From positions 744,001 through 808,000 of the forward strand of contig NZ_BMGA01000001.1 in assembly GCF_014639535.1 (NCBI RefSeq): a stretch of DNA of 64,000 nt. The letters are read 5' to 3'. Under the pieces are notes generated by a model. It made no database searches. It saw only the letters and a program-made list of their open reading frames with translations, and was not told the DNA's origin. This DNA is from Flavobacterium palustre (GTDB lineage Bacteria; Bacteroidota; Bacteroidia; Flavobacteriales; Flavobacteriaceae). The first letter of the stretch is position 1. Every line of letters begins with the position of its first letter. Made by a program: the position numbers and the translations under genes. Of this stretch, positions 3,756 through 22,465 are shown piece after piece.

Positions 3756-3793
3756 AAAAAAAATCTCCAAAATCAGGCTACTTTGGAGATTTT
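3756..3793 (-). terminator. Rho-independent terminator of the GH28 gene
   Basis: Stem AAATCTCCAAA (3761-3771) pairs with TTTGGAGATTT (3782-3792), followed on the minus strand by T-rich sequence. It separates the GH28 gene from the PL10 gene, so the two are probably transcribed independently. Confidence 0.8.
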
Positions 3794-3810
3794 AAAAATT
3801 CAGATTTCAA

Positions 3811-5490: not shown

Positions 5491-5548
5491 TCTTCTTTTT
5501 TTATAGGTTATTTTTTGGTTATAACAATTAATGTAATCGATTGCCTTA

Positions 5549-5556
5549 CAAATATA
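5549..5556 (-). promoter_or_regulatory. Candidate -7 promoter element for the GH28 gene
   Basis: The minus strand reads TATATTTG, matching the Bacteroidota -7 consensus TAnnTTTG, about 58 nt before the GH28 start. No TTG lies at the ideal upstream distance, so this is only half a promoter. Confidence 0.35.
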
Positions 5557-5701
5557 TTTAATTTATTTGGTTTTCTATCCCACAACTTTCATTCCATTTA
5601 TAAATACTTGTGTTAAAATCATTATCGAAAACATTTAAAATTATTTTGTTTCGCAACATAAAGGAAAATTCTTATTTTAGACTAAATTAAAAAACTAAAA
5701 C

Positions 5702-6247
5702 ATGAAAAGGATAAAATTGTTGTCGCTCATTGCATTTTCTCTTTTTTGTTTTTGTTCCAAAAAAGAAGAAAAGCCAAATTATAAGTATTTTGAATTCTCA
5801 TTTGACAATACTTTTGGAAGTTGTTTCTCTTTAAAATTTAGACCCAACGATAGTATTTATATTAGAGAACATTGGAATTCAAAAACCGTTTGGGATAGTA
5901 TATCTCCTCCACGAGAAAAAACAAATTATATAGCAATAATTAGTCAACAACAGCGAAAAGTACTAAACTACTTAATTTCGAAAATTCAACTTAAAAAATG
6001 TGACTCCATTTATTATGAAAATTATGTTGATGGGAGAACATATTCCATATTTATTGATAAAGATTCAGTCAAAAAATTAATTAAAGTTCACAGCTATAAT
6101 AATGTTCCTAATGAATTAGATAGTTTAGGTGCTTGGTTGTATCAATTTAAAACAAAAGCAAAATTGATAGAAACAACTAAAAAATTAGATTTTATTACAG
6201 CAAAGTATGTACTTCCACCACCTCCACCACTACCGATAAAAAAATAA
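5702..6247 (+). CDS. Small lipoprotein of unknown function
   Basis: I do not recognise a family. The N-terminus has a charged start, a hydrophobic stretch and a Cys pair (FCFCSKKEE, residues 15-23) that looks like a lipoprotein signal, so a membrane-anchored periplasmic or outer-membrane protein of 181 aa is likely. The rest is charged and mixed alpha/beta-like, ending in a Pro-rich tail (PPPPPLP) near the C-terminus. It stands alone on the plus strand between the GH28 and GH2 genes and shares a bidirectional terminator with the latter. It breaks an otherwise co-oriented carbohydrate block, so a metabolic link is not implied. Confidence 0.7.
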   Translation: MKRIKLLSLIAFSLFCFCSKKEEKPNYKYFEFSFDNTFGSCFSLKFRPNDSIYIREHWNSKTVWDSISPPREKTNYIAIISQQQRKVLNYLISKIQLKKCDSIYYENYVDGRTYSIFIDKDSVKKLIKVHSYNNVPNELDSLGAWLYQFKTKAKLIETTKKLDFITAKYVLPPPPPLPIKK

Positions 6248-6258
6248 ACATAACAAAA

Positions 6259-6295
6259 AAATCCCCTCTTTCCAATTTCTGAAAAAAGGGGATTT
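6259..6295. terminator. Bidirectional terminator
   Basis: AAATCCCC (6259-6266) pairs with GGGGATTT (6288-6295), with A- and T-rich flanks on both sides. It lies between the convergent stops of the lipoprotein gene and the GH2 gene. Confidence 0.8.
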
Positions 6296-6314
6296 AATTT
6301 TTTAGAAACTACTT

Positions 6315-8741
6315 TTATTTAGCAGCATTAACACTTAAAGTTGCTGTTTTTAATCCTTTTCCGCTAACGGTTAATTCCATAGTTCCGGCTTCTTCAACTG
6401 ATTGTAAGGTTACCACTAATTTTCCACTGAACAGTTTCATCGTTGGCAAATGAAATTGTTCCAATGAAGTCGCATCTCCATTACAAGCCGCTCTGTATTT
6501 TCCTTTTCCTTTGACTTTAAACTGCAATTGATTGGTAGCTGTAGGACATGGAATTCCATTTTTATCCACTACTGAAACGGTAACATAAGACAAATCTTTG
6601 CCATCGGCCTGAATGCTATTTCGATCGGCGTTAAGCACAATTTGATATGGATCTCCGGCAGTTTGGATTTGCTCTTCGGCAACTGCTTTTCCGTCTTTAT
6701 CAAAAGCAACTACTTTTACCGTTCCCGGTTCGTACTTCACGTCCATCCACATCAGTCGATACCTGTTTTGCGGAGTAGCGGTATTCTTTTTTTGGATTCC
6801 CATACTTTTTCCGTTTACAAAAAGCTCGGCACTATCATAACTCGTATAGACAAAAACAGGTGTAGTTTGACCTTCGCGTCCTTCCCAATTCCAATGCGGT
6901 AAAATATGTAAAGTTGCTTTTTCTGTATTCCAACGGCTTCTGTACAAATAGAATCTGTCTTTAGGCAAACCTGCTAAATCACTGATCCCAAAATACGAAC
7001 TACGGGAAGGCCATTTCTCATCATAAGGCGTAGGCTCACCCAAATAATCAAAACCGGTCCAAACAAATTCACCTATAACCCAAGGCTTGTCATCCTGTAA
7101 CACAAAATCTTCATCAGGTACATTCGACCAGCTACAGGCTTCTAAATCATAAGAAGAACACTGAAAATCCGGATATTGTTTGTTTTTTTCTTTTACCACA
7201 GGAAATTTATAAATTCCTCTTGAACTTACAGTCGAAGCAGTTTCAGAACCTAAAATAAATCCTTGAGGGAATTTTTTAAAAGCTTCTTCATACAAATGCA
7301 CACGATAATTCAATCCCGGAATATCTAACAAAGCTCCAAAACCTGATTCCATAGTTGCTTTTACCTGATCCATACCCACAGTTACCGGCCTTGTTGGATC
7401 TTCTCTGTGGAAAATTTCCTGTAGCCATTTGGCACGTTTTACTCCAGCTTCACCGTGTTGATCCGGAACTTCATTTCCGGAACTCCACATCACGATACAA
7501 GGATGATTTCGGGTAGCATGAACTAAATTTACGATATCTTTCTCGGCATAGGCTTCAAAAAATCGGTTGTATCCATTCTTCACTTTTGGCTTTGCCCATT
7601 CGTCAAAACTTTCGGCTAAGAACATGAATCCCATTTCGTCACATAATTCTAATTGTTCCAATGATGGCATGTTGTGAGAGCTTCGAATAGCATTACAGCC
7701 CATATCTTTTAAAATGGTCAATTGACGGCGTAAAGCTGCCTTATTTATTGCCGTTCCCAAAGGTCCTAAATCGTGATGCAAGCAAACGCCTTTAAACTTT
7801 CGTACTTCGCCATTTAGACTAAATCCTTTATTCGCTTCGTATTTTATCTCACGGATTCCAAAACGGGTTGTAACCTCATCCTTTAATTCGTCACCAACAA
7901 ACCATTGCGAAACGGCTTTATACAAATACGGACTTTCAGGACTCCACAACTTCGGATTATCGACTTTGATATTTTGTTCGAATTCAGTTCCGAATTTTGT
8001 AGTGGCTTTATCCGAACTTATTTTTTGTCCATTGGCATCAAAAATTGTAGTTACTAAATACCCATTTTCTCCTGTAGCCTTTGTTTTTACATTTACTTTG
8101 GCAACTTCTTTGCTAACTAATGGCGTTGTTATAGAAGTTCCCCATTGTTCAATACTTTCCTTATTTTTGATAATCAGACTAACTTTTCGATACAAACCCG
8201 CACCAGGATACCAACGTGAAGCAAACTCCTTGTTTGTTAATTTTACCGCCAAAGTATTCTCGCCTTCCTGTAGAAAATCAGAAACATCAAAATAAAAATA
8301 GCTGTAACCATAAGCCCATTCGCCCACTTTTTTCCCGTTTAGATATATCTGTGGTTCGCTCATAGCACCTTCAAAAAGCAGAATTACTTTCTTTCCTTTC
8401 TCAGCAGCCGAAATCGAAAACTTATTTCTGTACCAAGCCGTCCCGATATGAGGCAGCGCCCCGGTTCTTCCCGTTTTTTCAGAAGCTGTTTTTTCGCCAT
8501 TTTGAACAATCGCTACAGTCTGTTTATCAACTTCCTTATCAAATGGACCGTAAATAGCCCAATCATGCGGCACACTTACTTTTTGCCATTTTGAATCATT
8601 AAAATTCGTTTGGGAAGCGTTTTCAAAATCTCCTTTTTGGAACTTCCAATTACTTTCTAATTCCCTCACAGTTCGCACCTGAGAGAAAGAAATTGATATA
8701 CTTATAAAAAAGATTAAGAAGAAAAATCTAAACTGTGTCAT
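6315..8741 (-). CDS. Glycoside hydrolase family 2, beta-galactosidase-like
   Basis: Secreted exo-glycosidase, probably removing beta-galactose from pectin side chains. A signal peptide covers residues 1-20 (ending ISFSQ). Domains in order: jelly-roll sugar-binding domain (about 25-190), immunoglobulin-like domain (195-300), TIM barrel (300-600), then C-terminal sandwich domains including an invasin-like DUF4982-type region. The catalytic acid/base is Glu424 in WSSGNEVPD and the nucleophile Glu500 in ILGSETAS; both are intact. SSHNMPS near 354 is the usual GH2 loop. The 808 aa length is normal for Bacteroidota GH2 enzymes. Beta-glucuronidase or another exo-activity is possible, since specificity within GH2 is not readable by eye. 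Confidence 0.88.
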   Translation of the reverse strand: MTQFRFFFLIFFISISISFSQVRTVRELESNWKFQKGDFENASQTNFNDSKWQKVSVPHDWAIYGPFDKEVDKQTVAIVQNGEKTASEKTGRTGALPHIGTAWYRNKFSISAAEKGKKVILLFEGAMSEPQIYLNGKKVGEWAYGYSYFYFDVSDFLQEGENTLAVKLTNKEFASRWYPGAGLYRKVSLIIKNKESIEQWGTSITTPLVSKEVAKVNVKTKATGENGYLVTTIFDANGQKISSDKATTKFGTEFEQNIKVDNPKLWSPESPYLYKAVSQWFVGDELKDEVTTRFGIREIKYEANKGFSLNGEVRKFKGVCLHHDLGPLGTAINKAALRRQLTILKDMGCNAIRSSHNMPSLEQLELCDEMGFMFLAESFDEWAKPKVKNGYNRFFEAYAEKDIVNLVHATRNHPCIVMWSSGNEVPDQHGEAGVKRAKWLQEIFHREDPTRPVTVGMDQVKATMESGFGALLDIPGLNYRVHLYEEAFKKFPQGFILGSETASTVSSRGIYKFPVVKEKNKQYPDFQCSSYDLEACSWSNVPDEDFVLQDDKPWVIGEFVWTGFDYLGEPTPYDEKWPSRSSYFGISDLAGLPKDRFYLYRSRWNTEKATLHILPHWNWEGREGQTTPVFVYTSYDSAELFVNGKSMGIQKKNTATPQNRYRLMWMDVKYEPGTVKVVAFDKDGKAVAEEQIQTAGDPYQIVLNADRNSIQADGKDLSYVTVSVVDKNGIPCPTATNQLQFKVKGKGKYRAACNGDATSLEQFHLPTMKLFSGKLVVTLQSVEEAGTMELTVSGKGLKTATLSVNAAK

Positions 8742-8837: not shown

Positions 8838-8868
8838 AAACCCGACCACTTTTATAGTAGTCGGGTTT
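8838..8868 (-). terminator. Rho-independent terminator of the MFS transporter operon
   Basis: Stem AAACCCGACCACT (8838-8850) pairs with AGTAGTCGGGTTT (8856-8868) with one wobble. On the minus strand GGG is followed by seven Ts. It ends the transporter transcript before the GH2 gene. Confidence 0.85.
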
Positions 8869-10214: not shown

Positions 10215-10658
10215 TTAATTTTTTCTTTTTACGAGTAATAAATGGTCACAAACCATCACTACTTCTCCGCTTTGATTAATGATTTCCAAGTGCTCCGTTA
10301 CCGTTCCCATCTCCGGTCTTTTAGCATCACCTTTTTCTGAAATGGTAATTTCCGAGTGAATCGTATCACCAATGTGTACCGGTTTTACAAAACGCATTCT
10401 GTCATAACCCTTAGAAAAAGCTTCCGGATTAATCTCTGATGCCGTCAATCCTACCCCAATTGCAAGTACCATGGTTCCATGAGCAATACGTTGTCCAAAA
10501 GGCTGTGTTTTACACCATTCTTCATCCATATGGTGCGGAAAAAAATCGCCTGTGTGTCCTGCATGAACTACAAAATCAGTCTCAGTTATAGTTCTTCCCA
10601 ATGTTACACGCTTATCTCCTAATTGGTAATCTTCAAAAAATGTTGACTTAAAATACAT
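10215..10658 (-). CDS. MaoC-like (R)-specific enoyl-CoA hydratase
   Basis: Single hot-dog-fold protein of 147 aa, expected to add water to or remove it from an acyl-CoA thioester in the cytoplasm. The hydratase motif reads [12 protein letters not shown]: Asp38 and His43 are the likely catalytic pair, followed by GQRIAHGTM (His60), as in R-hydratases and mesaconyl-CoA hydratases. It lies 107 nt downstream of a Gfo/Idh/MocA gene and 20 nt before the sugar permease. A CoA-thioester hydratase fits the two CoA-transferases of the same region and suggests that a carboxylic acid is activated to CoA and then hydrated or dehydrated. Confidence 0.87.
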
Positions 10659-10694
10659 GTTTCTTTAGTTTATTTACCATAATAAGTCATATTA

Positions 10695-10750
10695 GACCAT
10701 TTAAGTTCTGTTTTTATTAGACTTACATGAACTTATATGTCTTAAATGGT
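10695..10750. repeat. Inverted repeat between oxidoreductase and MaoC genes
   Basis: ACCATTTAAG (10696-10705) pairs with CTTAAATGGT (10741-10750), with further partial pairing inside. There is no T-tract on the transcribed strand, so it may be an attenuator, processing site or regulator site rather than a terminator. Confidence 0.4.
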
Positions 10751-10765
10751 TTAATTTTTATTTTT

Positions 10766-11833
10766 TTATAATTCTCCTTGTGGAATTCCTCCATTTTTAT
10801 TGCTGATGTAGCAGGCTTCAACTACTTGCATTGTACCTAACACATTTTCAACACTGGCATACAATTCGCTGTCCGAACCTTCTTTATAACGCATCAGGTT
10901 AGCCATTGTTCCCACAAAAGCTTCCGGAAACCAGGAACCTTCCAGTTGTACTTTCTTCCATTCGTATTTTCCTGCTTCGTTTTGTACTGAGTATTCGAAA
11001 ACATCTTCCAGTCCGGCAGGGTAGTTCATCAACAAGCCCATCTTAGCTTTGACAGCTCCTTTCGTTCCTTCCCACTTGATGTAACTTTCTTCATGCTCCG
11101 GTCCAAAATGGTGATCGTGATTGGTATTAATTACTGCACGCATGGTGTCGCCATAATCCAGAATAATAGTCGAACGTGAAGATGATAAATCTTTCGATGG
11201 ATGTCTCCAGGTTTTGGCTAAAACACTTTTTGGATCTCCTACAAACGAACGAATGCAATCTATATAATGTACACTGTGGAATAAAATCTCCAATCTTGGA
11301 TGTACTTTAACCAATGGAAACAATTCCCAAGGTGTATTTACAGTTACTTTGAACTCCAAATCATACAATTCACCAATGATTCCTTCATTTATCAAATAAC
11401 GTGCCGCAGCCACAAATGGAGCAAATCGCAATTGGAAATTAATAGCTCCTACCAGATTTTTTCTTTCGCAAACAGCAAGGATTTCTTTGGCTTCAGCCAA
11501 ATCATTCCCCATTGGTTTTTGGATTAAAACCGCAGCACCATCAGGCAATTGCTCTAAAATTTCAATATATTGTTCCGGCATCACCGTAATGTCGTAAACA
11601 GCATTGGCAGGAGCACTTTTTACGGCATCAGCCACTGTTTCAAAAACATGAGGAATTCCAAATTCAGCAGCCATTGACTGTGCTTTGGCAAAAGTTCGGT
11701 TGGTAATTCCGAAAACCTCAAATCCGGCCATTTTATAAGCAGGCAAATGCGCATCTTTTACAATTCCGCTAGCGCCAATAATGACTATAGGTTGGTTGGT
11801 TTTTGGCAGTTGTGGCTTATAAGGAATTTGCAT
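10766..11833 (-). CDS. Gfo/Idh/MocA family NAD(P)-dependent oxidoreductase
   Basis: Cytoplasmic dehydrogenase acting on a sugar, inositol or derivative. The Rossmann fold begins at IVIIGASGIVKDAHLPAY (16-33), a variant of GxGxxG. The catalytic EKP motif reads QKP at 105-107, keeping the lysine. HSVHYIDC (186-193) supplies the conserved histidine and aspartate of the C-terminal domain. The 355 aa length is standard. Its start lies 2 nt after the stop of the solute-binding-protein homologue, so it is within the CoA-transferase operon. The Glu to Gln change in EKP occurs in some members and need not abolish activity. Substrate is unknown. Confidence 0.88.
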   Translation of the reverse strand: MQIPYKPQLPKTNQPIVIIGASGIVKDAHLPAYKMAGFEVFGITNRTFAKAQSMAAEFGIPHVFETVADAVKSAPANAVYDITVMPEQYIEILEQLPDGAAVLIQKPMGNDLAEAKEILAVCERKNLVGAINFQLRFAPFVAAARYLINEGIIGELYDLEFKVTVNTPWELFPLVKVHPRLEILFHSVHYIDCIRSFVGDPKSVLAKTWRHPSKDLSSSRSTIILDYGDTMRAVINTNHDHHFGPEHEESYIKWEGTKGAVKAKMGLLMNYPAGLEDVFEYSVQNEAGKYEWKKVQLEGSWFPEAFVGTMANLMRYKEGSDSELYASVENVLGTMQVVEACYISNKNGGIPQGEL

Positions 11834-11835
11834 AA

Positions 11836-13065
11836 TTATAGTATTTTTTCAATTTCAATTTGTGTGTTTTTTAATAAAACTGCAGACGGAGTTGTGGTTT
11901 GTATTGCATGCAAAACCAACTGGTCTATCAGTATGGCGATGTCCGGCCAAACCGCTATCTGTGGCAAGGTCAGGGCATTCTCGTGTAAACTTTCTAATTT
12001 GTGGTAGTAAGGGATTGTGGCATTAATTTCAGGATCGTTCCATGTCGATTTTCTACAACCAATTCCGCCTTCATTTGTCAATAATTTATCGCTCTCGGCA
12101 GTGGTGGCAAATCGTAAAAAATCGTAGGCTAATTGCTTGTTTTTACTTCCTTTTCCTATGGTGTATAACCAATAGACATTCAGTGAAGCTGTTTTTCCGC
12201 CATCGGCAAAAGGCAGGGTGGTAATATCTACTTTACCTTTAACTTTTGATTCGGCAATTACTTCGCACATCGAAGCAAAACCAAACCAGTTTATTGTCAT
12301 CGCAGCTTCTCCATTGGCGAAAGCCATACCTGCTTCAACCGAACCAAAATCAATCGAACCCGGATGAACAGCATTGGTATTTTTAACTATATAACGGTAA
12401 TAATCTAAGGTGTCAATTGCCGCCTGTGTATCAATATTTATTTGATTATCGGCATTCAATAAAGAACCGCCACGGGTCCATAAATGCAGGCAAAAGTCAA
12501 AAACCATGTTATGCCCATCAGGATAATTGGCAAAAACGCAGCCGTATAATTTTTCGTCAGGACGATTAAAGAAAGTAGCTATCTGGGTGAATTCCTCCCA
12601 TGTTTTAGGCGGATGCAATTCGTAACCGTATTGCTTTTTGAAGTTCTCTTTTTCAATCGGATTTTCGAATAAATCTTTTCTGTAAATCAAGCATTCCGGA
12701 CCATCATGAAACGGTAATCCGTAAATGCCTCCTTCAATTTCCTGCAAATGCAACAACGAATTGTGCCAGCCCTGAGGGAAATCCTTTGGCGCTTTATTAG
12801 TAATAAAAGGAGTTAAATCCTGCACTGCCTTGGCTTGAACCGCATCAAAAATCCAATCGGTATTGATATGGGCAATATCCCAATCGCCTTTTTTCAAACC
12901 TTCTTCGGTGATGGTTTGTTCGTACAAATCATGCAGCTCCATCGGAATCATTTCGACAGCAATGCTAATATTGTATTTTAAACAAAACGCATCCCATAAT
13001 TTCTGTAAGGCACTTTCAAAAGGGCCAAATTTTCTAACCGCAATTCTAAATGTTGAGTTTTCCAT
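11836..13065 (-). CDS. Solute-binding-protein homologue without signal peptide (copy 1)
   Basis: Family 1 extracellular solute-binding fold of about 409 aa, of the type that binds sugars for ABC importers. Visible landmarks are WDIAHINTDWIFDA, GGIYGLPFHDGPECLIYRKDLF, PPKTWEEFTQIA, GEAAMTINWFG and AYDFLRFATTAESDKLL. Unlike true family members it starts MENSTFRIAVRKFG with no hydrophobic signal or lipobox, and no ABC permease or ATPase lies nearby. A longer reading begins at TTG 13071, but the ATG at 13065 overlaps the stop of the preceding CoA-transferase gene (TAATG) and is preferred. That coupling suggests a cytoplasmic protein working with the transferase, perhaps holding or sensing the ligand. 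Confidence 0.82.
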   Translation of the reverse strand: MENSTFRIAVRKFGPFESALQKLWDAFCLKYNISIAVEMIPMELHDLYEQTITEEGLKKGDWDIAHINTDWIFDAVQAKAVQDLTPFITNKAPKDFPQGWHNSLLHLQEIEGGIYGLPFHDGPECLIYRKDLFENPIEKENFKKQYGYELHPPKTWEEFTQIATFFNRPDEKLYGCVFANYPDGHNMVFDFCLHLWTRGGSLLNADNQINIDTQAAIDTLDYYRYIVKNTNAVHPGSIDFGSVEAGMAFANGEAAMTINWFGFASMCEVIAESKVKGKVDITTLPFADGGKTASLNVYWLYTIGKGSKNKQLAYDFLRFATTAESDKLLTNEGGIGCRKSTWNDPEINATIPYYHKLESLHENALTLPQIAVWPDIAILIDQLVLHAIQTTTPSAVLLKNTQIEIEKIL

Positions 13066-14204
13066 TAGCAATTAATAAATTCTTCTAAAATACGTTCGTT
13101 ATCCTGACCCAACTTAGGCGAGCCCTTATCAGAAATAAATAATTCCCCATCAATTCGAATAGGGCATCTTGTGGTTTTATAACTATAGCCGTCAAGCATT
13201 TCCACCTGTTGTACAAAATTTAAAACCTGAAAACCATCCTGAGCAAAAAGCTGCTCATAATTCAATACATTGGCACACCAAATATCAGCAGGTTCTAAAA
13301 TATTTAACCAATATTCAGAATCCTGTGTTTGTAAATGTGCCGCTAAAACCGATTTGATATCGTCTCTTAAAGTAAATTTATTTTCGGGAAACTGCTTCAA
13401 TGCCTCACAGCTTAACAATTCTGCCAAAACCGGAATTGACCCCATGGCTAAACTCATGTAGCCATTTTTAGTCTGATAAATTCCATAAGGCGCACCTAAA
13501 TAAGCATTGGCATTGTTAGTTTTTGTTCGAACAGGCAATTCGCCACCATCATTAAAGAAAGTGGTAATAGTTTCAAACTGAAAATCAAACGCCGATTCCA
13601 ACATACTTACCTCTACCTGAGCTCCAACATTCTGAGTCACTTTTCGATACAAAGCTGCCAAAATTCCTTGGGCTAAATGCGCTCCCGCCAACATATCGAC
13701 AATAGACAATCCCATAGGAACCGGACCATCGCCCTCGTTTCCTGTCAGCCAGGTCAAAGCCGTTAAAGATTGTAACAATAAATCCTGTCCCGGCAAATCC
13801 TTAAAAGGACCTTTTGAGCCGTAACCACTTATCGAAGCATAAACCACATTAGGATTTATTTTTTGTACTTCTTCATAACTCAATCCAATGCGTTCCATAA
13901 CACCCGGTCTGAAATTATGCATTACCACATCGGCTTTTGCCAACAATTTCTTCAATTTTGCTAATTCCTCCGGCTGTTTAAAATCAATCGCAAAGGATTC
14001 TTTGTTTCGATTTATAGTATGAAAAACAGAGGATTCTCCGTTCATAATCAAATCCGAAGTATATAAGGTTCGGCAAATATCGCCTGTTCCCGGTTTCTCA
14101 ATTTTAATGACACGGGCACCCAAATCGGCCAGACGTAAACTGGCTGAAGGTCCCGAAAGAAACTGGCTGAAATCTATTATTAAATAATCTTCTAATGGTT
14201 TCAT
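13065..14204 (-). CDS. Family III CoA-transferase, CaiB/BaiF type (copy 1)
   Basis: Transfers CoA between a donor thioester and a carboxylic acid in the cytoplasm. The N-terminus LIIDFSQFLSGPSASLRLADLGARVIKIE is the family hallmark, followed by NFRPGVMERIGLSY and SGYGSKGPF. The nucleophilic aspartate is Asp170 in LSIVDMLAG, equivalent to Asp169 of formyl-CoA transferase. It is 379 aa, a little shorter than formyl-CoA transferase but full length for the family. It starts 3 nt after the second copy ends, and its stop overlaps the start of solute-binding homologue 1. The acid substrate cannot be read from sequence. Confidence 0.9.
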   Translation of the reverse strand: MKPLEDYLIIDFSQFLSGPSASLRLADLGARVIKIEKPGTGDICRTLYTSDLIMNGESSVFHTINRNKESFAIDFKQPEELAKLKKLLAKADVVMHNFRPGVMERIGLSYEEVQKINPNVVYASISGYGSKGPFKDLPGQDLLLQSLTALTWLTGNEGDGPVPMGLSIVDMLAGAHLAQGILAALYRKVTQNVGAQVEVSMLESAFDFQFETITTFFNDGGELPVRTKTNNANAYLGAPYGIYQTKNGYMSLAMGSIPVLAELLSCEALKQFPENKFTLRDDIKSVLAAHLQTQDSEYWLNILEPADIWCANVLNYEQLFAQDGFQVLNFVQQVEMLDGYSYKTTRCPIRIDGELFISDKGSPKLGQDNERILEEFINC

Positions 14205-14207
14205 CTT

Positions 14208-15344
14208 CTAATTTATAATAGTTTCAAGAATTATTTTATTTTGCTCACCTACTTTTGGTGCTGCTTTAGTACTGGTCAAAATTTGTCCGTCCAACTGAAT
14301 CGGACTTCGGGTAGTAACTATCTTTCTATGCTCGGCATTTTCAATTGTCTGCTTCATTGGCATACCAAAATCAATTGCGTCCAAATCCTGATAATTCAAT
14401 ACTTTTCCACACCAAACGCCTTTTCCAATCAATAAATCCAACCAGTGATCGGTTGACTTTTGAATGATACGCTCGCTTAAAAGCGTTCTGATTTCATCAC
14501 GGAATTCAAACCACAGCTGTTTTTCTCGGTATTTTTCCAAATTCACTTCGAGCAATTCGCTAATATACATTAAATCGCCCATAGCCAGCGAAAGATAACC
14601 ATCCTGAGTTTTGTAAACACCATAAGGCGCACTCAAAAAAGCATGAGCACTTCCGGCAACATCACCTCTTTTTTGCAATTGTCCACCATCATTTAAGTAC
14701 GAAGTAATGGCTTCAAATTGGACATCTAATATCGATTCGATTAAAGAAACTTCAACCAAAACGCCTTTATTAGTTTTGGCTCTTTTTAATAAAGCCGCCA
14801 AAAGTCCTTGTACCAAATGATTGCCACACATAATATCAGCAGTTGATAAACCAAAAGGAACCGGCCCCTGGCTATCTCTTCCGCTCAACCATGTCAATCC
14901 TGATAACGATTGTACCAATAAATCCTGTCCCGGTTTTTTAGCCCAAGGGCCTTCTTCACCATAACCTGAAACAACTCCGTAGATAATTTTTGGATTAATG
15001 GCAATGGCATCGGCGAAAGCCAAACCAATTTTATCCATAACACCCGGTCTGAAATTATGGGTCATAATATCAGCCTTGGCAATCAATTTTTTTACTAATT
15101 CTAAATCGTCCGGATTTTTAAGGTCGGCAGCAAAAGAGTCTTTGTTTCTGTTGATGGTATGAAAAAGCAAGCTGCTTTCGTCAACAAATAAGTCTTTAAT
15201 ACTCAATTGACGACAAGCCTCTCCTTTTACGGGTCTTTCTATTTTAATAACTCTGGCACCTAAGTCGGCGAGTTTTAATCCTGCTGAAGGTCCTGCCAAA
15301 AACTGGCAAAACTCTAAAACAACTAAACCTTCTAAAGGCCTCAT
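14208..15344 (-). CDS. Family III CoA-transferase, CaiB/BaiF type (copy 2)
   Basis: Paralogue of the adjacent transferase, colinear through at least residue 180 (NRNKDSFA, HNFRPGVM and PGQDLL fall at the same positions). The catalytic aspartate is Asp170 in LSTADIMCG. Its ATG overlaps the stop of solute-binding homologue 2 by 4 nt (ATGA), indicating translational coupling, and copy 1 follows after 3 nt. Family III enzymes form interlocked dimers, so two adjacent, diverged and apparently active copies could make a heteromer or could act on two acids. The order binding protein 2, transferase 2, transferase 1, binding protein 1 is mirror-like, suggesting duplication of a binding-protein and transferase pair. 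Confidence 0.9.
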   Translation of the reverse strand: MRPLEGLVVLEFCQFLAGPSAGLKLADLGARVIKIERPVKGEACRQLSIKDLFVDESSLLFHTINRNKDSFAADLKNPDDLELVKKLIAKADIMTHNFRPGVMDKIGLAFADAIAINPKIIYGVVSGYGEEGPWAKKPGQDLLVQSLSGLTWLSGRDSQGPVPFGLSTADIMCGNHLVQGLLAALLKRAKTNKGVLVEVSLIESILDVQFEAITSYLNDGGQLQKRGDVAGSAHAFLSAPYGVYKTQDGYLSLAMGDLMYISELLEVNLEKYREKQLWFEFRDEIRTLLSERIIQKSTDHWLDLLIGKGVWCGKVLNYQDLDAIDFGMPMKQTIENAEHRKIVTTRSPIQLDGQILTSTKAAPKVGEQNKIILETIIN

Positions 15345-16489
15345 ACTGTTGCCTCGTTAAGTGATTTTACATACAAAGCGTCCATTGCTTCAAGCACAGC
15401 TACTTCATCACCACCGTTCATCAAATAATCACGCACTACATCACCGGCATGATCCTGGAAATACATATGTCCTGCATATCTTGGACGAAGGAAAGCACGC
15501 TCTAAGGCAGGTAAGGTATTTTTGAAATAATCGTGAGTGATTCCGTTAATTCTGTCGCTTTTCCAAGCTTGTAAATGTCCCGGTTGTCCGCCATTATCGG
15601 CAAAAATATTCTGCTGAACATGAGAAGAACCTGTAAATTCAGCATACTTTAAAGCTTCCGGAAGATTCGCGCTGAAAGAAGAAACTGCTAAACCTGTTCC
15701 TCCTAATGAGCTGATCATAGGCTGATCGTTCAACTTTACTAAATCATAAAAGTGAAGTAAATGTTTGCTGTAACCAATTCTTGAATAATTAGAATAGCCA
15801 TAAGCAAACGGGCAATAAGCAATTTCATCAGTATTTACCATTGCCTCATAAACCTGAATTGGGTTTCTGTTGAAATTAGCAGCATCCATTAATTGCGCTA
15901 ATTCGCGGTGCATTTGCAAAGCTTTAATTCCTGTTTCTTTTGAAATCACAGTTTCCTGAGACAAAAACGGAGCTTCGCCCAAACTACAACAAAACGAATA
16001 AAAAGTCATTAATGAATCTACCGGAATTCCGGCAAATGCAACCAGTCCTTTTTTGGCTAAAGCCAATAAATCTTCGTAAGTTTCAGGAACTTTTAAACCG
16101 TTTTTTTCTAAAATATCCAAACGTGCAGCAGCTACCGGAGTAGCAGCATCAATAGGCAAAGCCCAAAGTTTGTTGTGAAAAACATAACTTTCGTATGATT
16201 TACCAACGGTATTTACTTCCTGGTCTTTAATATATTCACTTGAAAAATGATCCGACAAAGGAACAATCGTATTGGTAGCAGCACCAAAACCTGTCCACGG
16301 ATGATCAATCACCAATAAATCAAATCTTTTAGCTAAATCTTCAATCGAAGCATCGGCAAATTCCTGTAAGCTTCTTTTTTCCCAACTAATTTCTACATCT
16401 GGATACAGCTCAGTAAAACGCTGAGAAGTGGCAACCATTGGCAAAAGCCCTCTTGTATGGTTCCATGTAATCCCTTTCAATTTCTTCAT
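15341..16489 (-). CDS. Solute-binding-protein homologue without signal peptide (copy 2)
   Basis: Periplasmic-binding-protein fold of 382 aa starting MKKLKGITWNHTRGLLPMVA, with no signal peptide or lipobox, so probably cytoplasmic. Binding-protein landmarks include FDLLVIDHPWTGFG, LWALPIDAATPVAA, VPETYEDLLALA, ISSLGGTGLAVS and YAEFTGSSHVQQNIF. It is the first gene of the tightly packed operon and overlaps the following CoA-transferase by 4 nt. No ABC permease or ATPase is in the window. Likely roles, all inferred: ligand delivery to the transferase, an allosteric sensor, or an enzyme that evolved on this fold. A mis-called start is unlikely because the upstream sequence offers no in-frame hydrophobic extension in the 337-bp gap. 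Confidence 0.83.
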   Translation of the reverse strand: MKKLKGITWNHTRGLLPMVATSQRFTELYPDVEISWEKRSLQEFADASIEDLAKRFDLLVIDHPWTGFGAATNTIVPLSDHFSSEYIKDQEVNTVGKSYESYVFHNKLWALPIDAATPVAAARLDILEKNGLKVPETYEDLLALAKKGLVAFAGIPVDSLMTFYSFCCSLGEAPFLSQETVISKETGIKALQMHRELAQLMDAANFNRNPIQVYEAMVNTDEIAYCPFAYGYSNYSRIGYSKHLLHFYDLVKLNDQPMISSLGGTGLAVSSFSANLPEALKYAEFTGSSHVQQNIFADNGGQPGHLQAWKSDRINGITHDYFKNTLPALERAFLRPRYAGHMYFQDHAGDVVRDYLMNGGDEVAVLEAMDALYVKSLNEATV

Positions 16490-16564
16490 TTTTTTTTACT
16501 TTTCTATTTTTTATCGGAACGCAGTTTTCCAAAGTTAAAATTAAGAAAACTAACTTATCCTTTT

Positions 16565-16584
16565 TTATCCGTTATTATCTAGGT
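16565..16584. promoter_or_regulatory. Degenerate copy of the shared 20-mer operator candidate
   Basis: TTATCCGTTATTATC (16565-16579) matches 12 of the first 15 positions of the 20-mer found upstream of the AraC/isomerase pair and of the symporter operon. It lies 76 nt before the first gene of the CoA-transferase operon, a sensible place for an activator. Alone it could be chance in AT-rich DNA. Confidence 0.4.
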
Positions 16585-16637
16585 TTTATCTGTTTTTCAT
16601 CTGCAAAAACAACTGTGAATATAGTTATTAAAACAAC

Positions 16638-16686
16638 AATTCGAGTGCTTTTTTGTAGCATAACGAAACAAAAAACACTCGAATTG
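16638..16686. terminator. Long hairpin, possible terminator
   Basis: AATTCGAGTG (16639-16648) pairs with CACTCGAATT (16676-16685), and the stem extends inward through the T6/A6 runs with one bulge. It is 140 nt past the isomerase-like stop and could end that minus-strand transcript. Confidence 0.5.
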
Positions 16687-16700
16687 ACATATTATTTTTT

Positions 16701-16813
16701 AACCACCCCGCCCGTTGGGCACCTCCCGAATTCTCGGACAAGCTCTCCCCAGGAGGGGAATTTCGAGCGCCATTCCCCTCTTTCAGAGGGGTGGTCGAAG
16801 ACCGGGGTGTTTT
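16701..16813. repeat. GC-rich palindromic intergenic element
   Basis: Begins AACCACCCCG and ends CGGGGTGTTTT. Outer arms CACCCCG (16704-16710) and CGGGGTG (16803-16809) enclose smaller hairpins such as CCCCTCTTTCAGAGGGG (16775-16791) and CTCCCCAGGAGGGGA (16745-16759). Its base composition is unlike the AT-rich surroundings. From memory, elements of this style recur in Bacteroidota genomes; copy number here is unknown. Confidence 0.6.
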
Positions 16814-16826
16814 AAATAACGTTTTA

Positions 16827-18425
16827 TTACACCGCTACATCCCCACAAAAATGCACCTGAATTCCTAATTCCTGTAAAGCAGCTGCTTTGATTCGGCAAC
16901 ACTTGTTTGCTTCCGCTTCATTTTCAGCATATACCACCTGAATGTGATTCGCCTTATGGCGTCCCATCATCTGATCGCGACTCACTCCTTTTAAAACCGC
17001 ATTCATAATAGGCCATTGTGGTGTAGTCATATTCCATCTTCTGTCTAATTCTTCTTTTGGTAAATCGACTGATTCCCCAATTCCCATATCACAATGCAAA
17101 GCATCATCCATCACATAAATACGACTCCAAACAATTGATCCCGGTTTACTCACACCTTTCACACTTCCTCCTCCTAATCTGAAATACATTTCCGGCTGTC
17201 TTTCGCTGGAAGTTCCTTCATAACCGCCTACAAAATGCTCCGGCGGTGCTGCTCCACTAATTAAGAATACCCAGACAAATCCGTCAATTCCGTTATTTTT
17301 GTAGTGTTCTCCATAACGCAAATCATGCAGGGTATTTTCACCTTTCAAGCCCATAGAACGCCACAAATTGTAGGTTACCAAAGCATCAATTCCGGCACAT
17401 TCATCCACTTCGTTAAAATGTGGCAAAGCCTCTCCGGCAAACAACTCGTTTCCGGCTTCGTCAAAAACAGGAGGGCGGTTTTGATTGTTTAATAATCCTT
17501 CCACCAAATCACTTGCAGGAACTAAATCCTTCAAACCTTGTTGGTATTGAATCCCAATAGTATCACAACCAAATTCAGCTGCAATGCGTACTGCAGCAAT
17601 GTACATTTTGCATTGTAACAAAGTCTGATTTCTGGTTAATTGAGTTGCTTCATCCGTTCCCCAGTCAAATTGCATTCCTTTATCAAGCAACCATGCTAAT
17701 ACTGCTTCGGCTTCTTCGTCTTTCACCGTTAGCATTTTTGCGTAAAGCGATGATTGCGATAATCTTTCTTTATAAATTCCTGTTGGATGCAACAAATGAT
17801 CCGGAACAATGGCGTTGAACATTCCCATACAACCTTCGTCGAAAACCCCCATGATGGCTTTTTCTTTTCGGAATGCTTTTGCAAATGCAGTTCCTTTTGC
17901 TAATTCGTCAGCAGGAATTAGTGCTTTATCAAAAGCTTTTACGTGACTCAAATCCGGTTGAACGGTAGCGGTTTGCAACCAGTTTTTCAAATTACTTTTG
18001 AAAAAATCATCACTAAAATCTACACTCCACAACGTGCTGTATTCTACTCCCGCCTTAGTCAAAGAACCGTTTAAGTTCAACATTCCTACCAGTCCAGGCC
18101 ATTCTCCGCTCCAGTTAGCCACCGTTAAAATTGGTCCCTGATGCGTTATCAAACCTGCCAAAACGTGGTGCGAATATTGCCAAACACTTTCAGCAACAAT
18201 TAATGGCGCAGTTGGGTCAATGTTTTTAAAAACCTGCATTCCCATTTTCTGGCTGTCAATAAAACCGTGTTGTTTTTGCTCATCATAAGCATGCGCTCTG
18301 ATGATTTTTCCGCCAGCCTCAGCCACCGCTTCTGATAATAATTGCTCCATTTGGGCTTGTGCATCCCAACATACCTGATTGGCCGATAAACGCAAATCGC
18401 CACTTGCTACTAAATAGATATTCAT
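16827..18425 (-). CDS. L-fucose/L-arabinose isomerase family protein
   Basis: Predicted cytoplasmic, metal-dependent aldose-ketose isomerase of 532 aa. It has an N-terminal fold seen in fucose isomerases ([31 protein letters not shown]), a central segment [15 protein letters not shown], the region [14 protein letters not shown], and a C-terminal domain with [10 protein letters not shown] near residues 492-501. [11 protein letters not shown] (about 366-376) may supply acidic metal ligands. It starts the minus-strand side of a divergent promoter region shared with the AraC regulator, 337 nt upstream of the CoA-transferase operon. It differs from classical FucI enough that the substrate may be another sugar or a sugar acid. 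Confidence 0.8.
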
Positions 18426-18628: not shown

Positions 18629-18687
18629 AATGTTTTCAATTGTAAAAATTACACTAATTTAGCAAAATCATTCCAAACGCATTGTAT

Positions 18688-19557
18688 ATGAAGCCATTAT
18701 TCCATAAAGTCCCAACCAGTATCCAAAGTTCTTTTGAAGTCAGACATGATAAGAAACCTAATTTTGGAAAGCTGTGGCATTACCACCCTGAACTCGAATT
18801 GCACTTTGTTGCTAAGGGTGAAGGAGTGCGCTTTATTGGTGACAACATCAGTAATTTCAGCTCCGGAGAAGTTATTTTGCTTGGCGAAAACCTGCCTCAT
18901 ACCTGGCGTTGTCATGAAGAGTATTATCAAAATAATTCCGCTCTTGATGTTGAAGCCATCGTAATTCACTTTCTACCCGATTGTTTAGGCAAAGATTTTA
19001 TAAACCTGCCGGAATCATTTATGCTTCCGAAACTATTCGATAAGGCAAAAAAGGGAATGATTTTCAACGGAAAAGCCAAAGAAGAATTGATAGAGCTAAT
19101 GAAGAAAGCCCCCAATGTGAATCAAATTGACAAGTTGATTATACTTCTTACTATCTTAAAAATACTTTCAGAAACGGAAGAATATACCGAGATCACTTCT
19201 TCGCATGCTTTTTATCAATCGAATGAATCGGATTCCATCCGACTCAATAAAATATGCAGTTATACGCTTTCGAATTATAAAAAAGAAATCACACTGAATG
19301 AAATCGCGGCATTCAGCAACTTGAGTGTGACCTCTTTTTGCCGTTATTTCAAGCTGATGACTAAGAAAACCTATTATGATTTTTTGATAGAAATCCGGAT
19401 CAGTCATGCCTGCCGTTTACTCATTGAAAATAAAATCCCAACCGAAATGATTTGTTTTGAATGTGGTTTTAATAATGTTTCCAACTTTTACCGCCATTTT
19501 AAAAAAGTCACCGGAATTACTCCTATGGAATATAAGAAAAGGTATTTGTCGAATTGA
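18688..19557 (+). CDS. AraC-family transcriptional regulator with cupin domain
   Basis: DNA-binding regulator of 289 aa. The N-terminal cupin (about 20-110; LWHYHPELELHFVAKGEGVRFIGD, SSGEVILLGENLPHTWR) is expected to bind a sugar-type effector. The C-terminus has the two helix-turn-helix motifs of the family (LNEIAAFSNLSVTSFCRYFK, then MICFECGFNNVSNFYRHFKKVTGITPMEYKKRY). A TTG two codons upstream (18682) extends the frame, but the ATG at 18688 is preferred. It is divergent from the isomerase-like gene, with a 20-mer repeat between them that recurs upstream of the symporter operon, so it probably controls the whole 8.9-22.5 kb region. Confidence 0.9.
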   Translation: MKPLFHKVPTSIQSSFEVRHDKKPNFGKLWHYHPELELHFVAKGEGVRFIGDNISNFSSGEVILLGENLPHTWRCHEEYYQNNSALDVEAIVIHFLPDCLGKDFINLPESFMLPKLFDKAKKGMIFNGKAKEELIELMKKAPNVNQIDKLIILLTILKILSETEEYTEITSSHAFYQSNESDSIRLNKICSYTLSNYKKEITLNEIAAFSNLSVTSFCRYFKLMTKKTYYDFLIEIRISHACRLLIENKIPTEMICFECGFNNVSNFYRHFKKVTGITPMEYKKRYLSN

Positions 19558-19957: not shown

Positions 19958-20878
19958 CTAGAATGACAACTCATTCTGGAGAATATCGTACTCTTTTTGC
20001 AGTTGATCCACTGCATTTTTAACAACCGGAGTAAAATCACCTACTTCTCTGCGTGTAAAATTAGAAATAGACAAACCTCTTTGTTGTAAAGTATATTTAG
20101 CCACAATAGGATACACATCGTGCATAACACCCATATTTGTCACTAAAAACTGTTGCACCGCCGCTAATTCATCAGCTTTAGATGCGTCATTATAATTATC
20201 GCAAATCCAAACAATCAGTTCAGGAAAGAAATTCCCCTGAATACAGGACAATCCTGCCGAACCTGCTTTTAAGGATTCGATCGCATGCACCATATACGCA
20301 TCATACAAACCGAATTCCGGATTTTTAACCACACTCAATTTGGCTTTAATCTGATTGATATCTAAGCTGGTGTCTTTATGATAAATTACTCTTCCTGTAT
20401 TTACAAAATCCTCTAATTGTGAAGCCGACAATACTCTTTTATAAGGAACCGGACATTCGTAGAATCCTGTTGGTACTCCCGGAGTCAAATCCAATAACTG
20501 GTGTACATTGTTTACAAAGACTTCATCCGAATCATTTTCTTTAGCCAATAAACCTGAAATTAAAATCACAGCATCGATTCCGGTTCCGTAGATTTTATTG
20601 GTAAAATCAGCCTGCTGCTGAATCGTTCCTTCAAAAGTCCCTGTAGCTACAATTGGCACCTGACCCGCCACTACATCAACCACGTGTTTTGTTACCTGAA
20701 GACGTTCTGCTTCGGATAATTCAAACATTTCACTAGACAAACAATTGGCAAATAAACCAGTAACACCGGACTTTAAATACAACTCCGTAAGAGCCGTTAG
20801 TGTTTTGTAATCAATGCTACCATCATTATTAAATGGCGTTAACATTACCGGAATAAATCCCTTTTTTGAATTGTTCAT
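19958..20878 (-). CDS. DapA/NanA-family aldolase or dehydratase
   Basis: Class I (Schiff-base) lyase of 306 aa acting on a 2-keto acid. The active-site lysine is Lys168 in IYHKDTS and the catalytic tyrosine is Tyr140 in FYECPVPY, at the spacing of the family (Tyr133/Lys161 in DapA). The substrate loop that reads GTTGE in dihydrodipicolinate synthase reads NCLSSE here, so lysine biosynthesis is unlikely. A 2-keto-3-deoxy sugar acid or sialate-like substrate fits the context. The gene follows the symporter by 30 nt as the second gene of an operon whose upstream region carries the 20-mer shared with the AraC/isomerase promoter. Confidence 0.85.
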   Translation of the reverse strand: MNNSKKGFIPVMLTPFNNDGSIDYKTLTALTELYLKSGVTGLFANCLSSEMFELSEAERLQVTKHVVDVVAGQVPIVATGTFEGTIQQQADFTNKIYGTGIDAVILISGLLAKENDSDEVFVNNVHQLLDLTPGVPTGFYECPVPYKRVLSASQLEDFVNTGRVIYHKDTSLDINQIKAKLSVVKNPEFGLYDAYMVHAIESLKAGSAGLSCIQGNFFPELIVWICDNYNDASKADELAAVQQFLVTNMGVMHDVYPIVAKYTLQQRGLSISNFTRREVGDFTPVVKNAVDQLQKEYDILQNELSF

Positions 20879-20908: not shown

Positions 20909-22465
20909 TTAAGCTTTTACGCTTCTAAATTTTGCTATAGTTGCTCCGGTAAGATAGATCGAAAGCGTTCCCACAACGATCACCATATTAGCATGAAGCG
21001 GACTTCTTAAAAAATCATATCGATCCGGAATCAGGCTCGAAAGCGACAACCAAAGAATCACCATAATTCCTATAATCGTTGCAGCCATAGCCTCGGTATT
21101 TCCTGATTTTTTACTGATAATACCCAAAAGGAAAAGCCCCAGCATTCCTCCTGCAAAAATGCCTGACAATTGCCACCAGATGTCCAGAATACTTTTTACC
21201 CCAATCATCGCGATACCACAGGCCATTCCGCCCAATCCAAACAAAACGGTTCCGATATACAGCAAACGCATATTTTGTTTGTCGCTGATTTTTTTCTTCG
21301 AATAACGCTTGTAGATATCCTCTGAAAACACTGTTGCCGAAGCATTCATTCCCGAACTTATAGTACTCATAGCCGCCGAAAGAATCGCCGAAACTATTAG
21401 TCCCAATAAACCCGTAGGAATCATGTTGACCATGAAATTAGGCATCACCTTATCACCATAATCTGATGGTTGTAATGTTTTTGCATAATTGGCAATATCA
21501 ATTTGAGAAGCCGTTGCTCCAAGATGTTCGGCAGCTGCCTGTAATTTAATTGGCTCAATCAACGAAGGAGTTGTTTGATAGTAAGCAAACAAACAAGAAC
21601 CAATTACAAAGAAAACCAACGAAACCGGAACAAACATCCAAACACACAACCAAATTGACTTTGAAGCCTCTTTAGCCGAAGACGAAGCATGATAACGCTG
21701 TACATAATTCTGGTCCATTCCAAAATTATTCAGGTTGATAAAAAACCCATATAACAATACCACCCAAAAAGTAGAAGTGGTAAAATCAAGTGCAAAGCTG
21801 CCCAGACTAAACTTATCACTTTCCTGACCAATGGCTATAATTTTAGAAACACCTCCCGGCATTTTGGAAACAATCAAATACAGAATTAACAAAGCACCCG
21901 CTGTTTTCAAAACGGCCTGAACCACTTCGGTCCAAATTACCGCTTCGATTCCACCCAATACCGTATAAATCACAATACAAATACCGGTAACCAACATAAT
22001 GGTTTCCATACTAAAACCCGTCAGGGCTTGCAGTGTAAGGGAAATTCCAAAAAACACCGAACCCATTCGGGTAATTTGTGTCAGCAAAAAACAAACCACA
22101 GCATAAGTTCTTGCCCAGGGACCAAAACGTTTCTCTAAATTAGTATAAGCCGAAACCTCTCCCGTGCTGCGGTAAAACGGCACAAAATATTTAGCCGCCA
22201 CCCAGGCTGCAAATGGCATCGAAATACTAAAAACAAAAGCATTCCAATTTCCTCCAAACGCCTTTCCGGGAACACCTAAAAAAGTATTGCTGCTTAAAAA
22301 GGTAGCATATATTGACAATCCTATTGCCCAGCCCGGAATCTTACCGGAGGCTTTAGTGTACTGCTCTGAACTTTCGTTTTTTCTGGAGAAATAAATTCCC
22401 ACGCCCACCATTGCAATCAAATAGAGTACAATAATAGCGATATCTAATAATGGTAAATTTTTCAT
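20909..22465 (-). CDS. Sodium/solute symporter, SSS family
   Basis: Inner-membrane Na+-coupled importer of 518 aa with about 13 transmembrane helices. Landmarks are DIAIIVLYLIAMVGVGIYFSRKN at the N-terminus, a KIPGWAIGLSIYATFLSSNTFLG segment near 40-65, TEVVQAVLKTAGALLILY, and AAMSTISSGMNASATVFSEDIYKRY in the family's conserved core. The family carries sugars, uronates, sialic acid and others. Pairing with a DapA-type aldolase suggests import of an acidic sugar that is cleaved after processing. It is first in its operon, with an identical copy of the AraC-region 20-mer 123 nt upstream of its start. Confidence 0.9.
   Translation of the reverse strand: MKNLPLLDIAIIVLYLIAMVGVGIYFSRKNESSEQYTKASGKIPGWAIGLSIYATFLSSNTFLGVPGKAFGGNWNAFVFSISMPFAAWVAAKYFVPFYRSTGEVSAYTNLEKRFGPWARTYAVVCFLLTQITRMGSVFFGISLTLQALTGFSMETIMLVTGICIVIYTVLGGIEAVIWTEVVQAVLKTAGALLILYLIVSKMPGGVSKIIAIGQESDKFSLGSFALDFTTSTFWVVLLYGFFINLNNFGMDQNYVQRYHASSSAKEASKSIWLCVWMFVPVSLVFFVIGSCLFAYYQTTPSLIEPIKLQAAAEHLGATASQIDIANYAKTLQPSDYGDKVMPNFMVNMIPTGLLGLIVSAILSAAMSTISSGMNASATVFSEDIYKRYSKKKISDKQNMRLLYIGTVLFGLGGMACGIAMIGVKSILDIWWQLSGIFAGGMLGLFLLGIISKKSGNTEAMAATIIGIMVILWLSLSSLIPDRYDFLRSPLHANMVIVVGTLSIYLTGATIAKFRSVKA

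Follow-up and report, generated by a model that had tools for sequence, protein, structure and literature searches.

The 64-kb window of Flavobacterium palustre analysed here, i.e., the whole stretch of 64,000 nucleotides, carries one minus-strand operon (18425–8893) that encodes a FucI-like protein, SBP2, CoT2, CoT1, SBP1, a Gfo/Idh/MocA oxidoreductase, a MaoC-type hydratase, and the symporter FucP, in this order (Table 1). CoT1 and CoT2 are family III coenzyme A (CoA)-transferases, SBP1 and SBP2 proteins of the solute-binding-protein (SBP) fold. Judged from sequence and gene neighbourhood, this set is probably a module for CoA-thioester chemistry that includes leaderless proteins of the sugar-binding fold and is tied to the catabolism of 6-deoxy-L-hexose acids. 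The best single mechanism might be a CoA-recycling dehydration of the aldonate, which we put forward tentatively. All genes named in an initial annotation of the window are present and open. Its minus-strand cluster stands; the stretch it marked ends at 10215, and the operon continues through FucP to 8893. Families were assigned by Pfam and NCBIfam profiles. From SBP2 through Gfo/Idh, the intergenic gaps measure at most 3 bp, with overlaps of 4 bp between SBP2 and CoT2 and of 7 bp between CoT1 and SBP1—which suggests translational coupling.

A locus search with SBP2 returned 102 relatives, from which 80 loci of Flavobacterium, Pedobacter, and Desertivirga were kept; Flavobacterium locus counts refer throughout to the 62 loci of at least 19 kb. 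The order SBP2–CoT2–CoT1–SBP1–Gfo/Idh–MaoC–FucP is kept in every one of these 62 and, hence, does not reflect chance. L039 is the single case among them in which SBP1 lies in two pieces. The FucI-like gene, positioned 337 bp upstream of SBP2 in the window, occurs together with a dihydrodipicolinate synthase (DHDPS)-family gene and a sodium symporter gene in only 7/62 loci (7/7 of the window type) and was thus rejected as core first step. The fucose-isomerase-like enzyme, which had initially been counted with the set, is therefore not part of the core. Its product matches the respective Pfam families weakly, below both cut-offs (29.3 bits for PF02952 and 28 for PF07881), and has no sequence match in the PDB. 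In L164, another pair of DHDPS and sodium symporter genes adjoins the module. Among the SBP2 loci, the nearest relative of the module in the window (assembly size 3.97 Mb) belongs to F. glycines, with an SBP2 that is 98% identical. The laboratory species F. johnsoniae also has the module, in strain CI04 (locus L068), together with L-fucose-type neighbours.

Fifteen other stretches—four from the SBP2 locus set and 11 from a further set, with L124 and L132 belonging to the genus of the window—contain SBP2 (15), both CoTs (13), Gfo/Idh (12), MaoC (12), SBP1 (7), and a crotonase (4). SBP1 is missing from eight of the 15, and two of those genomes hold it elsewhere. Exactly two adjacent CoTs are found in 16/16 module genomes examined; in two genomes, where SBP2 stands apart, the CoT pair lies 11 kb and 60 kb off and is there accompanied by MaoC, Gfo/Idh, and SBP1. 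Overall, SBP2 is present in 17 of the 296 genomes of a phylum sample (the window's own counted, and one marginal at 6e-4). The regions of Persicobacter and Rufibacter show the Bacteroidota gene order together with RhaT. In L126, from a Bacteroidota genome of another class (G342), a 468-aa protein without Pfam match (L126:8402-9808) stands beside SBP2, and the genes on its other side are putatively of the rhamnose type.

Outside this phylum, a tblastn search of SBP2 against plasmids gave 147 records, mostly from rhizobia, and also from Azospirillum, Roseibium, and Streptomyces. Together with the other Bacteroidota, related modules hence occur in Alpha- and Betaproteobacteria and on one Streptomyces plasmid; these combinations span three phyla, and the cluster is not confined to the window, as the initial annotation had left conceivable. 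Fifteen regions were read—14 found with SBP2 and one of Jannaschia found with CoT2—and, as open reading frame calls are unreliable in these G+C-rich stretches, tblastn and the records' own annotation were used instead. A CaiB-type gene adjoins SBP2 in 12 of the 14 regions and is at most three genes away in all 14 (by tblastn in L108, which is unannotated). A single CoT of the module kind is seen in most of the alphaproteobacterial stretches read. In L108 (S. meliloti 1021 pSymB), the CaiB-type gene by SBP2 (13854-14983) matches in two pieces and looks frameshifted; in L107, from another S. meliloti strain, the same gene is in one frame.

Two module types can be distinguished among these regions. 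The type with MaoC and Gfo/Idh is found in Martelella, Labrenzia, Pararhizobium, Shinella, and Qingshengfaniella, within L-fucose/L-rhamnose-type clusters that contain a fuconate dehydratase in four of the five and mutarotase, FAH, amidohydrolase, and ATP-binding cassette (ABC) importer genes in varying sets. The type with a crotonase combines CoT, SBP2, Gfo/Idh, a short-chain dehydrogenase/reductase (SDR), an aldose epimerase, and ABC genes (Variovorax, where an FAH gene is added, and Sinorhizobium medicae pSymA). Rhizobium Q54 bears CoT, crotonase, SBP2, and a MaoC-like gene with a tripartite ATP-independent periplasmic (TRAP) transporter. In Croceibacterium, the CoT adjoins a GH106 rhamnosidase. 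On the Streptomyces plasmid, SBP2, CoT, and MaoC are joined by an FAH protein and an NADP aldehyde dehydrogenase, and no aldonate dehydratase is annotated in the 25 kb shown, for which the gene table is incomplete. A second cluster of Martelella has CoT and crotonase and no SBP2 by tblastn; SBP2 is thus not universal.

Both CoTs of the window belong to family III over the whole chain, as PF02515 spans residues 4–369 in each, and they are 49% identical to one another. The aspartate in the D170 column, which we take to be the catalytic aspartate of this family, is present in 231/231 CoT rows (many of them near-identical) and aligns with an Asp in the structure 9br6, a succinate-hydroxymethylglutarate CoA-transferase. 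In a midpoint-rooted tree of 40 CoTs, CoT1 and CoT2 form a group that excludes the alphaproteobacterial CoTs, a topology compatible with a single duplication within Bacteroidota. None of the curated equivalog cut-offs is reached: best scores are 76/413 bits for carnitine, 188/522 for oxalate, 158/504 for formyl-CoA, 158/700 for mesaconate, and 197/750 for succinate-glutarate CoA-transferases. The possibility of an ordinary oxalate- or carnitine-type enzyme, raised by the initial annotation, is excluded only to the extent that these cut-offs are missed.

By profile, SBP1 (112 bits) and SBP2 (35 bits) belong to the SBP fold, and SBP2 aligns end to end with sugar-binding proteins, covering a full periplasmic-binding-protein (PBP) fold. 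No export leader was detected in SBP1 (7/7 rows) or SBP2 (24 rows) by hydropathy, the sole measure used in place of a signal-peptide predictor: the 11-residue peak amounts to 0.97–1.33 in SBP1, 0.04–1.68 in SBP2, and 2.0–2.6 in eight ordinary SBPs with in-frame extension allowed. No ABC permease or ATPase is encoded among the genes of the window's operon, and the (incomplete) gene tables of the Persicobacter and Rufibacter regions list no permease. In the alphaproteobacterial clusters, an ABC system is encoded separately, and the SBP belonging to it does carry a leader. SBP1 and SBP2 appear to stay inside the cell and are probably not transporter parts—a role in solute transport, implied when they were first named, finds no support without leader and permease. 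Nor do we favour remnants of a lost ABC transporter, given the strong sequence conservation in the absence of leader and permeases. SBP2 shows many invariant polar residues across phyla and conserved motifs of its own; it forms a separate family that is linked to CoA-transferases. MqnA and MqnD are PBP-fold enzymes; none of this type was among the 50 rows compared with SBP2, which does not exclude them.

A full PBP fold without leader would also suit cytosolic sensors or storage proteins, with the chemistry performed by CoT and MaoC alone. We regard this as very unlikely, given that SBP2 overlaps CoT2 and accompanies a CoT in all SBP2-found plasmid regions, and that its invariant polar residues are more like those of a catalytic or obligate partner.

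The sugar context of the module is provided by its neighbours, which in most Flavobacterium loci are divergent from the operon and comprise a lactonase, an L-fucose dehydrogenase, a zinc alcohol dehydrogenase, an FAH hydrolase, and an SDR. Lactonase, L-fucose dehydrogenase, and alcohol dehydrogenase occur together in 51/62 loci, the FAH hydrolase in 45/62, and the SDR (KDF dehydrogenase) in 28 of these. In L019, the L-fucose dehydrogenase exceeds its curated cut-off (357 versus 300 bits), while fuconolactonase (267/400 bits) and 2,4-didehydro-3-deoxy-L-rhamnonate (FAH) hydrolase (366/500 bits) are the best-matching families and stay below cut-off. The alcohol dehydrogenase of this locus resembles PRK10083 (207/376 bits), presumably LgoD-like, so that an L-galactonate side branch may be possible. 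FucD, UxaA-type dehydratase, and MR-type proteins were not found within the 62 loci. α-L-Rhamnosidases at L087 and L117 and α-L-fucosidases at L109 and L117, together with FucP and RhaT, indicate 6-deoxy-L-hexoses. Rhamnogalacturonans contain both L-rhamnose and L-fucose, and the pectin/rhamnogalacturonan setting suggested for the window is compatible with the surroundings, as a glycoside hydrolase (GH) of family GH28 is present in 49/62 and a pectate lyase in 26/62 loci.

The genome of the window holds the same enzymes. Relative to the proteins of L019, its L-fucose dehydrogenase is 76%, its lactonase 56%, and its DKDF (FAH) hydrolase 89% identical; L-fucose dehydrogenase, lactonase, and alcohol dehydrogenase lie together at C2:453-456 kb, KDF dehydrogenase and FAH hydrolase at C2:27-29 kb, and none of the reference dehydratases stands beside either site. 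Of 40 genomes tested, all but G392, G164, and G325 (37) contain the L-fucose dehydrogenase, and all but G164 (39) contain the lactonase. With L-fucose dehydrogenase, fuconolactonase, and 2,4-diketo-3-deoxy-acid hydrolase as neighbours, activation of a sugar-derived acid to its CoA thioester is the natural reading. Of this proposal of the initial annotation, the gene combination and its sugar-acid neighbours are real, while the activity is a prediction. In L141, L142, L156, and others, the surroundings of the KDF dehydrogenase and FAH genes include three genes for proteins of about 245, 457, and 194 aa; by length and start these resemble LutABC of lactate utilisation, which would fit lactate as an end product.

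Family III CoA-transferases act on many small acids, and with GH28 nearby in most Flavobacterium loci the region is one of pectin degradation. Instead of the sugar backbone, the acid might thus be another plant-cell-wall acid, handled by ordinary CaiB-type CoTs that merely neighbour sugar genes. The failure of every curated CoT model, the full-length match of SBP2 to sugar-binding proteins, and the recurrence of sugar dehydrogenase, lactonase, and symporters beside it make this quite unlikely.

MaoC and crotonase, acyl-CoA hydratases of unrelated fold, occupy the same place in different modules, and one or the other is found in 76/77 chromosomal stretches (the exception being L126) and in 12/14 of the SBP2-found plasmid regions. 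The Asp and His of the D..PxH motif, which we assume to be the catalytic dyad of MaoC hydratases, are present in 15/15 module MaoC rows; the His is lacking from two MaoC-like proteins outside this set (L112 and L113). The closest solved chain to the MaoC protein of the window is 4ffu (215 bits). All nine module crotonases keep both catalytic Glu, and a feruloyl-CoA-type lyase is therefore not favoured; the known crotonase-type lyase replaces one of them. The same residues bear on a CoA-dependent C–C cleavage, in which a hydratase-fold enzyme would split off a short acyl-CoA (e.g., glycolyl-CoA) by retro-aldol reaction and the aldehyde dehydrogenase of the sister modules would oxidise the remaining aldehyde. 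Crotonase and aldehyde dehydrogenase do lie near SBP2 in L124, L125, L127, and L132, and in L127 the latter matches PRK10090 (463/500 bits), presumably of the lactaldehyde/glycolaldehyde type. Apart from the intact Glu pair, however, no MaoC protein is known to act as lyase, and the association with 2,4-diketo-3-deoxy-acid hydrolase indicates a 2-keto-3-deoxy acid; cleavage is hence rather improbable.

In the dehydration route that we favour, a 6-deoxy-L-hexose—L-fucose or L-rhamnose—would enter via FucP or RhaT, and L-fucose dehydrogenase and fuconolactonase, assigned by family and with a presumed substrate, would oxidise and delactonise it to the aldonate. CoT1/CoT2 would then transfer CoA onto the aldonate in the cytosol, whereby SBP2, with SBP1 where present, might serve as cytosolic binding partner presenting the polyhydroxy acid. 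MaoC, or the crotonase in sister modules, would take the C3 hydroxyl as water, converting the aldonyl-CoA to a 2-keto-3-deoxy-acyl-CoA. Finally, the CoT would hand CoA to the next aldonate, freeing the 2-keto-3-deoxy acid, so that CoA would be recycled. The acid could proceed via KDF dehydrogenase and FAH hydrolase or, beside the operon of the window, via the DHDPS-type aldolase.

Across a sample of 200 Flavobacterium genomes, SBP2 was found in 39 (a match at 29% with three stops in G402 was dropped) and the FAH hydrolase, the last enzyme of the pathway, in 59 that include all 39. The FAH hydrolase thus accompanies SBP2 in 39/39 genomes and occurs in 20/161 genomes without it (p 5e-27). FucD at 60% identity or above is present in 2/200 genomes, the window's not among them, with 40% relatives in two more, and it is missing from 38/39 module genomes. 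An FAH-linked protein of the UxaA family (75–100% identity group) is present in 32 genomes, all but one of which belong to the 59; the 51–57% group was taken as canonical UxaA, and the FAH-linked 57% copy of G025 was counted in. In the loci read, this UxaA-type protein is encoded close to KDF dehydrogenase/FAH genes, frequently along with FucP or L-fucose dehydrogenase, whether the module is present or not, and it (L140:7392-9047 and relatives) is a candidate for a non-enolase L-fuconate dehydratase. UxaA-type fragments were seen at G493:C66:2800-3012 and G392:C37:10631-10723, in genomes with neither module nor FucD, and a disrupted copy at G457:C6:676159-677812.

The 59 FAH genomes divide into 21 with the module alone, 16 with another dehydratase alone, 18 with both, and four with neither (the disrupted copy of G457 counted as present; if it is left out, 15 have another dehydratase alone and five neither). 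A simple replacement of a dehydratase by the module is hence only partly borne out. Defined by two queries, FucD at 60% or above and the FAH-linked UxaA-type enzyme, no known-type dehydratase is present in 21 of the 39 module genomes, the window's included, and all 21 hold L-fucose dehydrogenase and lactonase. The genome of the window encodes two IlvD/EDD proteins, and the one examined is IlvD, over its cut-off.

Several observations weigh against a sugar-acid module that dehydrates. A FucD or UxaA-type enzyme is also present in 18/39 Flavobacterium module genomes, an L-fuconate dehydratase is annotated in the alphaproteobacterial stretches L111–L114, and the anticorrelation between module and other dehydratase is weak (Fisher p 0.015, no kinship correction). 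Both p values overstate independence, since the genomes are related. Four of the 59 FAH genomes (G392, G424, G458, and G493) have neither module nor dehydratase; G458 keeps lactonase, L-fucose dehydrogenase, alcohol dehydrogenase, FAH hydrolase, and KDF dehydrogenase in a row, plus FucP, with the module gone. In the genome of the window, an enolase-superfamily protein beside an AraC-like regulator (L169:9551-10639) scores 217/500 bits to talarate/galactarate dehydratase and may be an unrecognised dehydratase. A 66% relative of it occurs in three Pedobacter module loci (in L087 at 5544-6617, next to the rhamnosidase), and with the FucD query an enolase-superfamily protein of about 365 aa was found in 4/21 module-alone genomes, the window's included. 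Searches for IlvD/EDD and general MR_MLE proteins covered two of these 21 (G000 and G005), those for UxuA-type enzymes none of them. Beyond the genus, the module genomes G164 and G325 lack an L-fucose dehydrogenase and G164 also a lactonase at the thresholds used, and no hydratase is present in L126 or in two S. meliloti stretches. On the mechanistic side, the role of SBP2 as CoT partner is inferred from fold and conservation, and the proposed route assigns no step to Gfo/Idh or to the second CoT/SBP pair.

The co-occurring dehydratases, both in the alphaproteobacterial stretches and in the 18 Flavobacterium genomes, would be explained by a CoA-dependent epimerisation, whereby the thioester lets the α carbon epimerise—or, with Gfo/Idh and alcohol dehydrogenase, another carbon—before dehydration of the FucD, UxaA, or MR type. 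The CaiB fold includes α-methylacyl-CoA racemases (PDB matches 8rp5 and 1x74), and Gfo/Idh and, in most Flavobacterium loci, the alcohol dehydrogenase accompany the module. Epimerisation needs no hydratase, yet MaoC or crotonase is nearly constant, with catalytic residues intact in all 24 sequences aligned, and in 21 module genomes the product would meet no known-type dehydratase. We therefore consider it unlikely.

Table 1. Operon of the F. palustre window and features flanking it
Feature	Position	Strand	Evidence
FucI-like protein, 532 aa; first gene of the operon, peripheral	16827..18425	-	PF02952 22.5 bits, PF07881 22.0 bits
SBP2, 382 aa; leaderless sugar-binding-protein fold, module marker	15341..16489	-	SBP_bac 35 bits
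CoT2, 378 aa; family III CoA-transferase	14208..15344	-	PF02515 293.5 bits
CoT1, 379 aa; family III CoA-transferase	13065..14204	-	PF02515 309 bits
SBP1, 411 aa; second leaderless SBP-fold protein	11836..13071	-	PF01547 112 bits
Gfo/Idh/MocA oxidoreductase, 355 aa	10766..11833	-	PF01408 44 bits, PF02894 28 bits
MaoC-type acyl-CoA (de)hydratase, 147 aa	10215..10658	-	PF01575 78 bits
FucP-type L-fucose:H+ symporter, 433 aa	8893..10194	-	TIGR00885 364 bits (cut-off 280)
Terminator-like hairpin at operon end	8838..8868	-	13 pairs, then T-rich tail; consensus match only
AraC-type regulator, divergent, upstream	18682..19557	+	PF12833 69 bits; in 7/7 window-type loci
DHDPS-family protein, candidate 2-keto-3-deoxy-acid aldolase or dehydratase	19958..20878	-	PF00701 91 bits
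Sodium:solute symporter (SSS), upstream	20909..22465	-	PF00474 150 bits
Pectate lyase, GH28, and GH2 beside the operon	2500..8741	-	PF09492, PF00295, PF02836

On the downstream side of the operon, GH2, GH28, and pectate lyase are accompanied by a GH97. No tRNA and no Rfam match were found anywhere in the window. At 23138-26673, the window encodes a type IV restriction-like helicase/PLD/DUF3427 protein (PADLOC mREase_IV, 776 bits), whose gene is overlapped just upstream by that of a NUDIX protein (PDC-S07, 156 bits), a candidate defence pair.

Carnitine metabolism by CaiB/CaiD—and likewise BaiF/BaiE in bile-acid dehydroxylation—relies on a transferase that recycles CoA and a hydratase that removes a β-hydroxyl from the thioester. 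The module resembles this system in its pairing of a family III CoA-transferase with a hydratase and, as proposed here, in passing CoA between substrate and dehydrated product. It differs by missing the carnitine model, by its probable sugar-acid substrate, by using MaoC or another crotonase, and by the regular presence of a leaderless SBP-fold partner. With the non-phosphorylative L-fucose pathway it shares the transporter and, by family, the first, second, and last enzymes, whereas none of the 62 Flavobacterium loci has the enolase-superfamily dehydratase FucD, in whose place the CoA module stands. Compared with the ABC sugar-binding proteins SmoF, MalE3, and CbpB, the SBPs of the module are leaderless, have no permease or ATPase in the operon, carry motifs of their own, and are linked to CoTs. 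The adjacent paralogous CaiB-type pair recalls two-subunit family III transferases such as benzylsuccinate CoA-transferase (PDB 9fn0); in contrast to that enzyme, both subunits keep the Asp in the window, and most alphaproteobacterial stretches show one CoT.

Water removal from sugar acids has so far been attributed to metal-dependent enolase-superfamily, IlvD/EDD, or UxaA enzymes. The module is undescribed in the literature searched, including the portions covered of PMC5507952, PMC13406643, and PMC9007349, with most subscription journals and preprints outside this coverage. PMC5507952 reports an Algoriphagus marincola fucose locus without FucD and a Rhodobacteraceae rhamnose locus with unknown enzymes. 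The UxaA-type protein could fill part of this FucD gap, and the module, if the proposed function is true, would bear on it as well.

More broadly, it is conceivable, and offered with greater reserve than the dehydration itself, that aldonates are broken down as CoA thioesters across Bacteroidota, Pseudomonadota, and Actinomycetota—6-deoxyhexoses with MaoC and other sugars with crotonase—and that cytosolic SBP-fold proteins are subunits or partners of family III CoTs. If true, this would give a function to genes that at present bear no more than the names 'extracellular solute-binding protein' and 'CoA transferase', and it would add CoA-thioester chemistry to sugar-acid catabolism.

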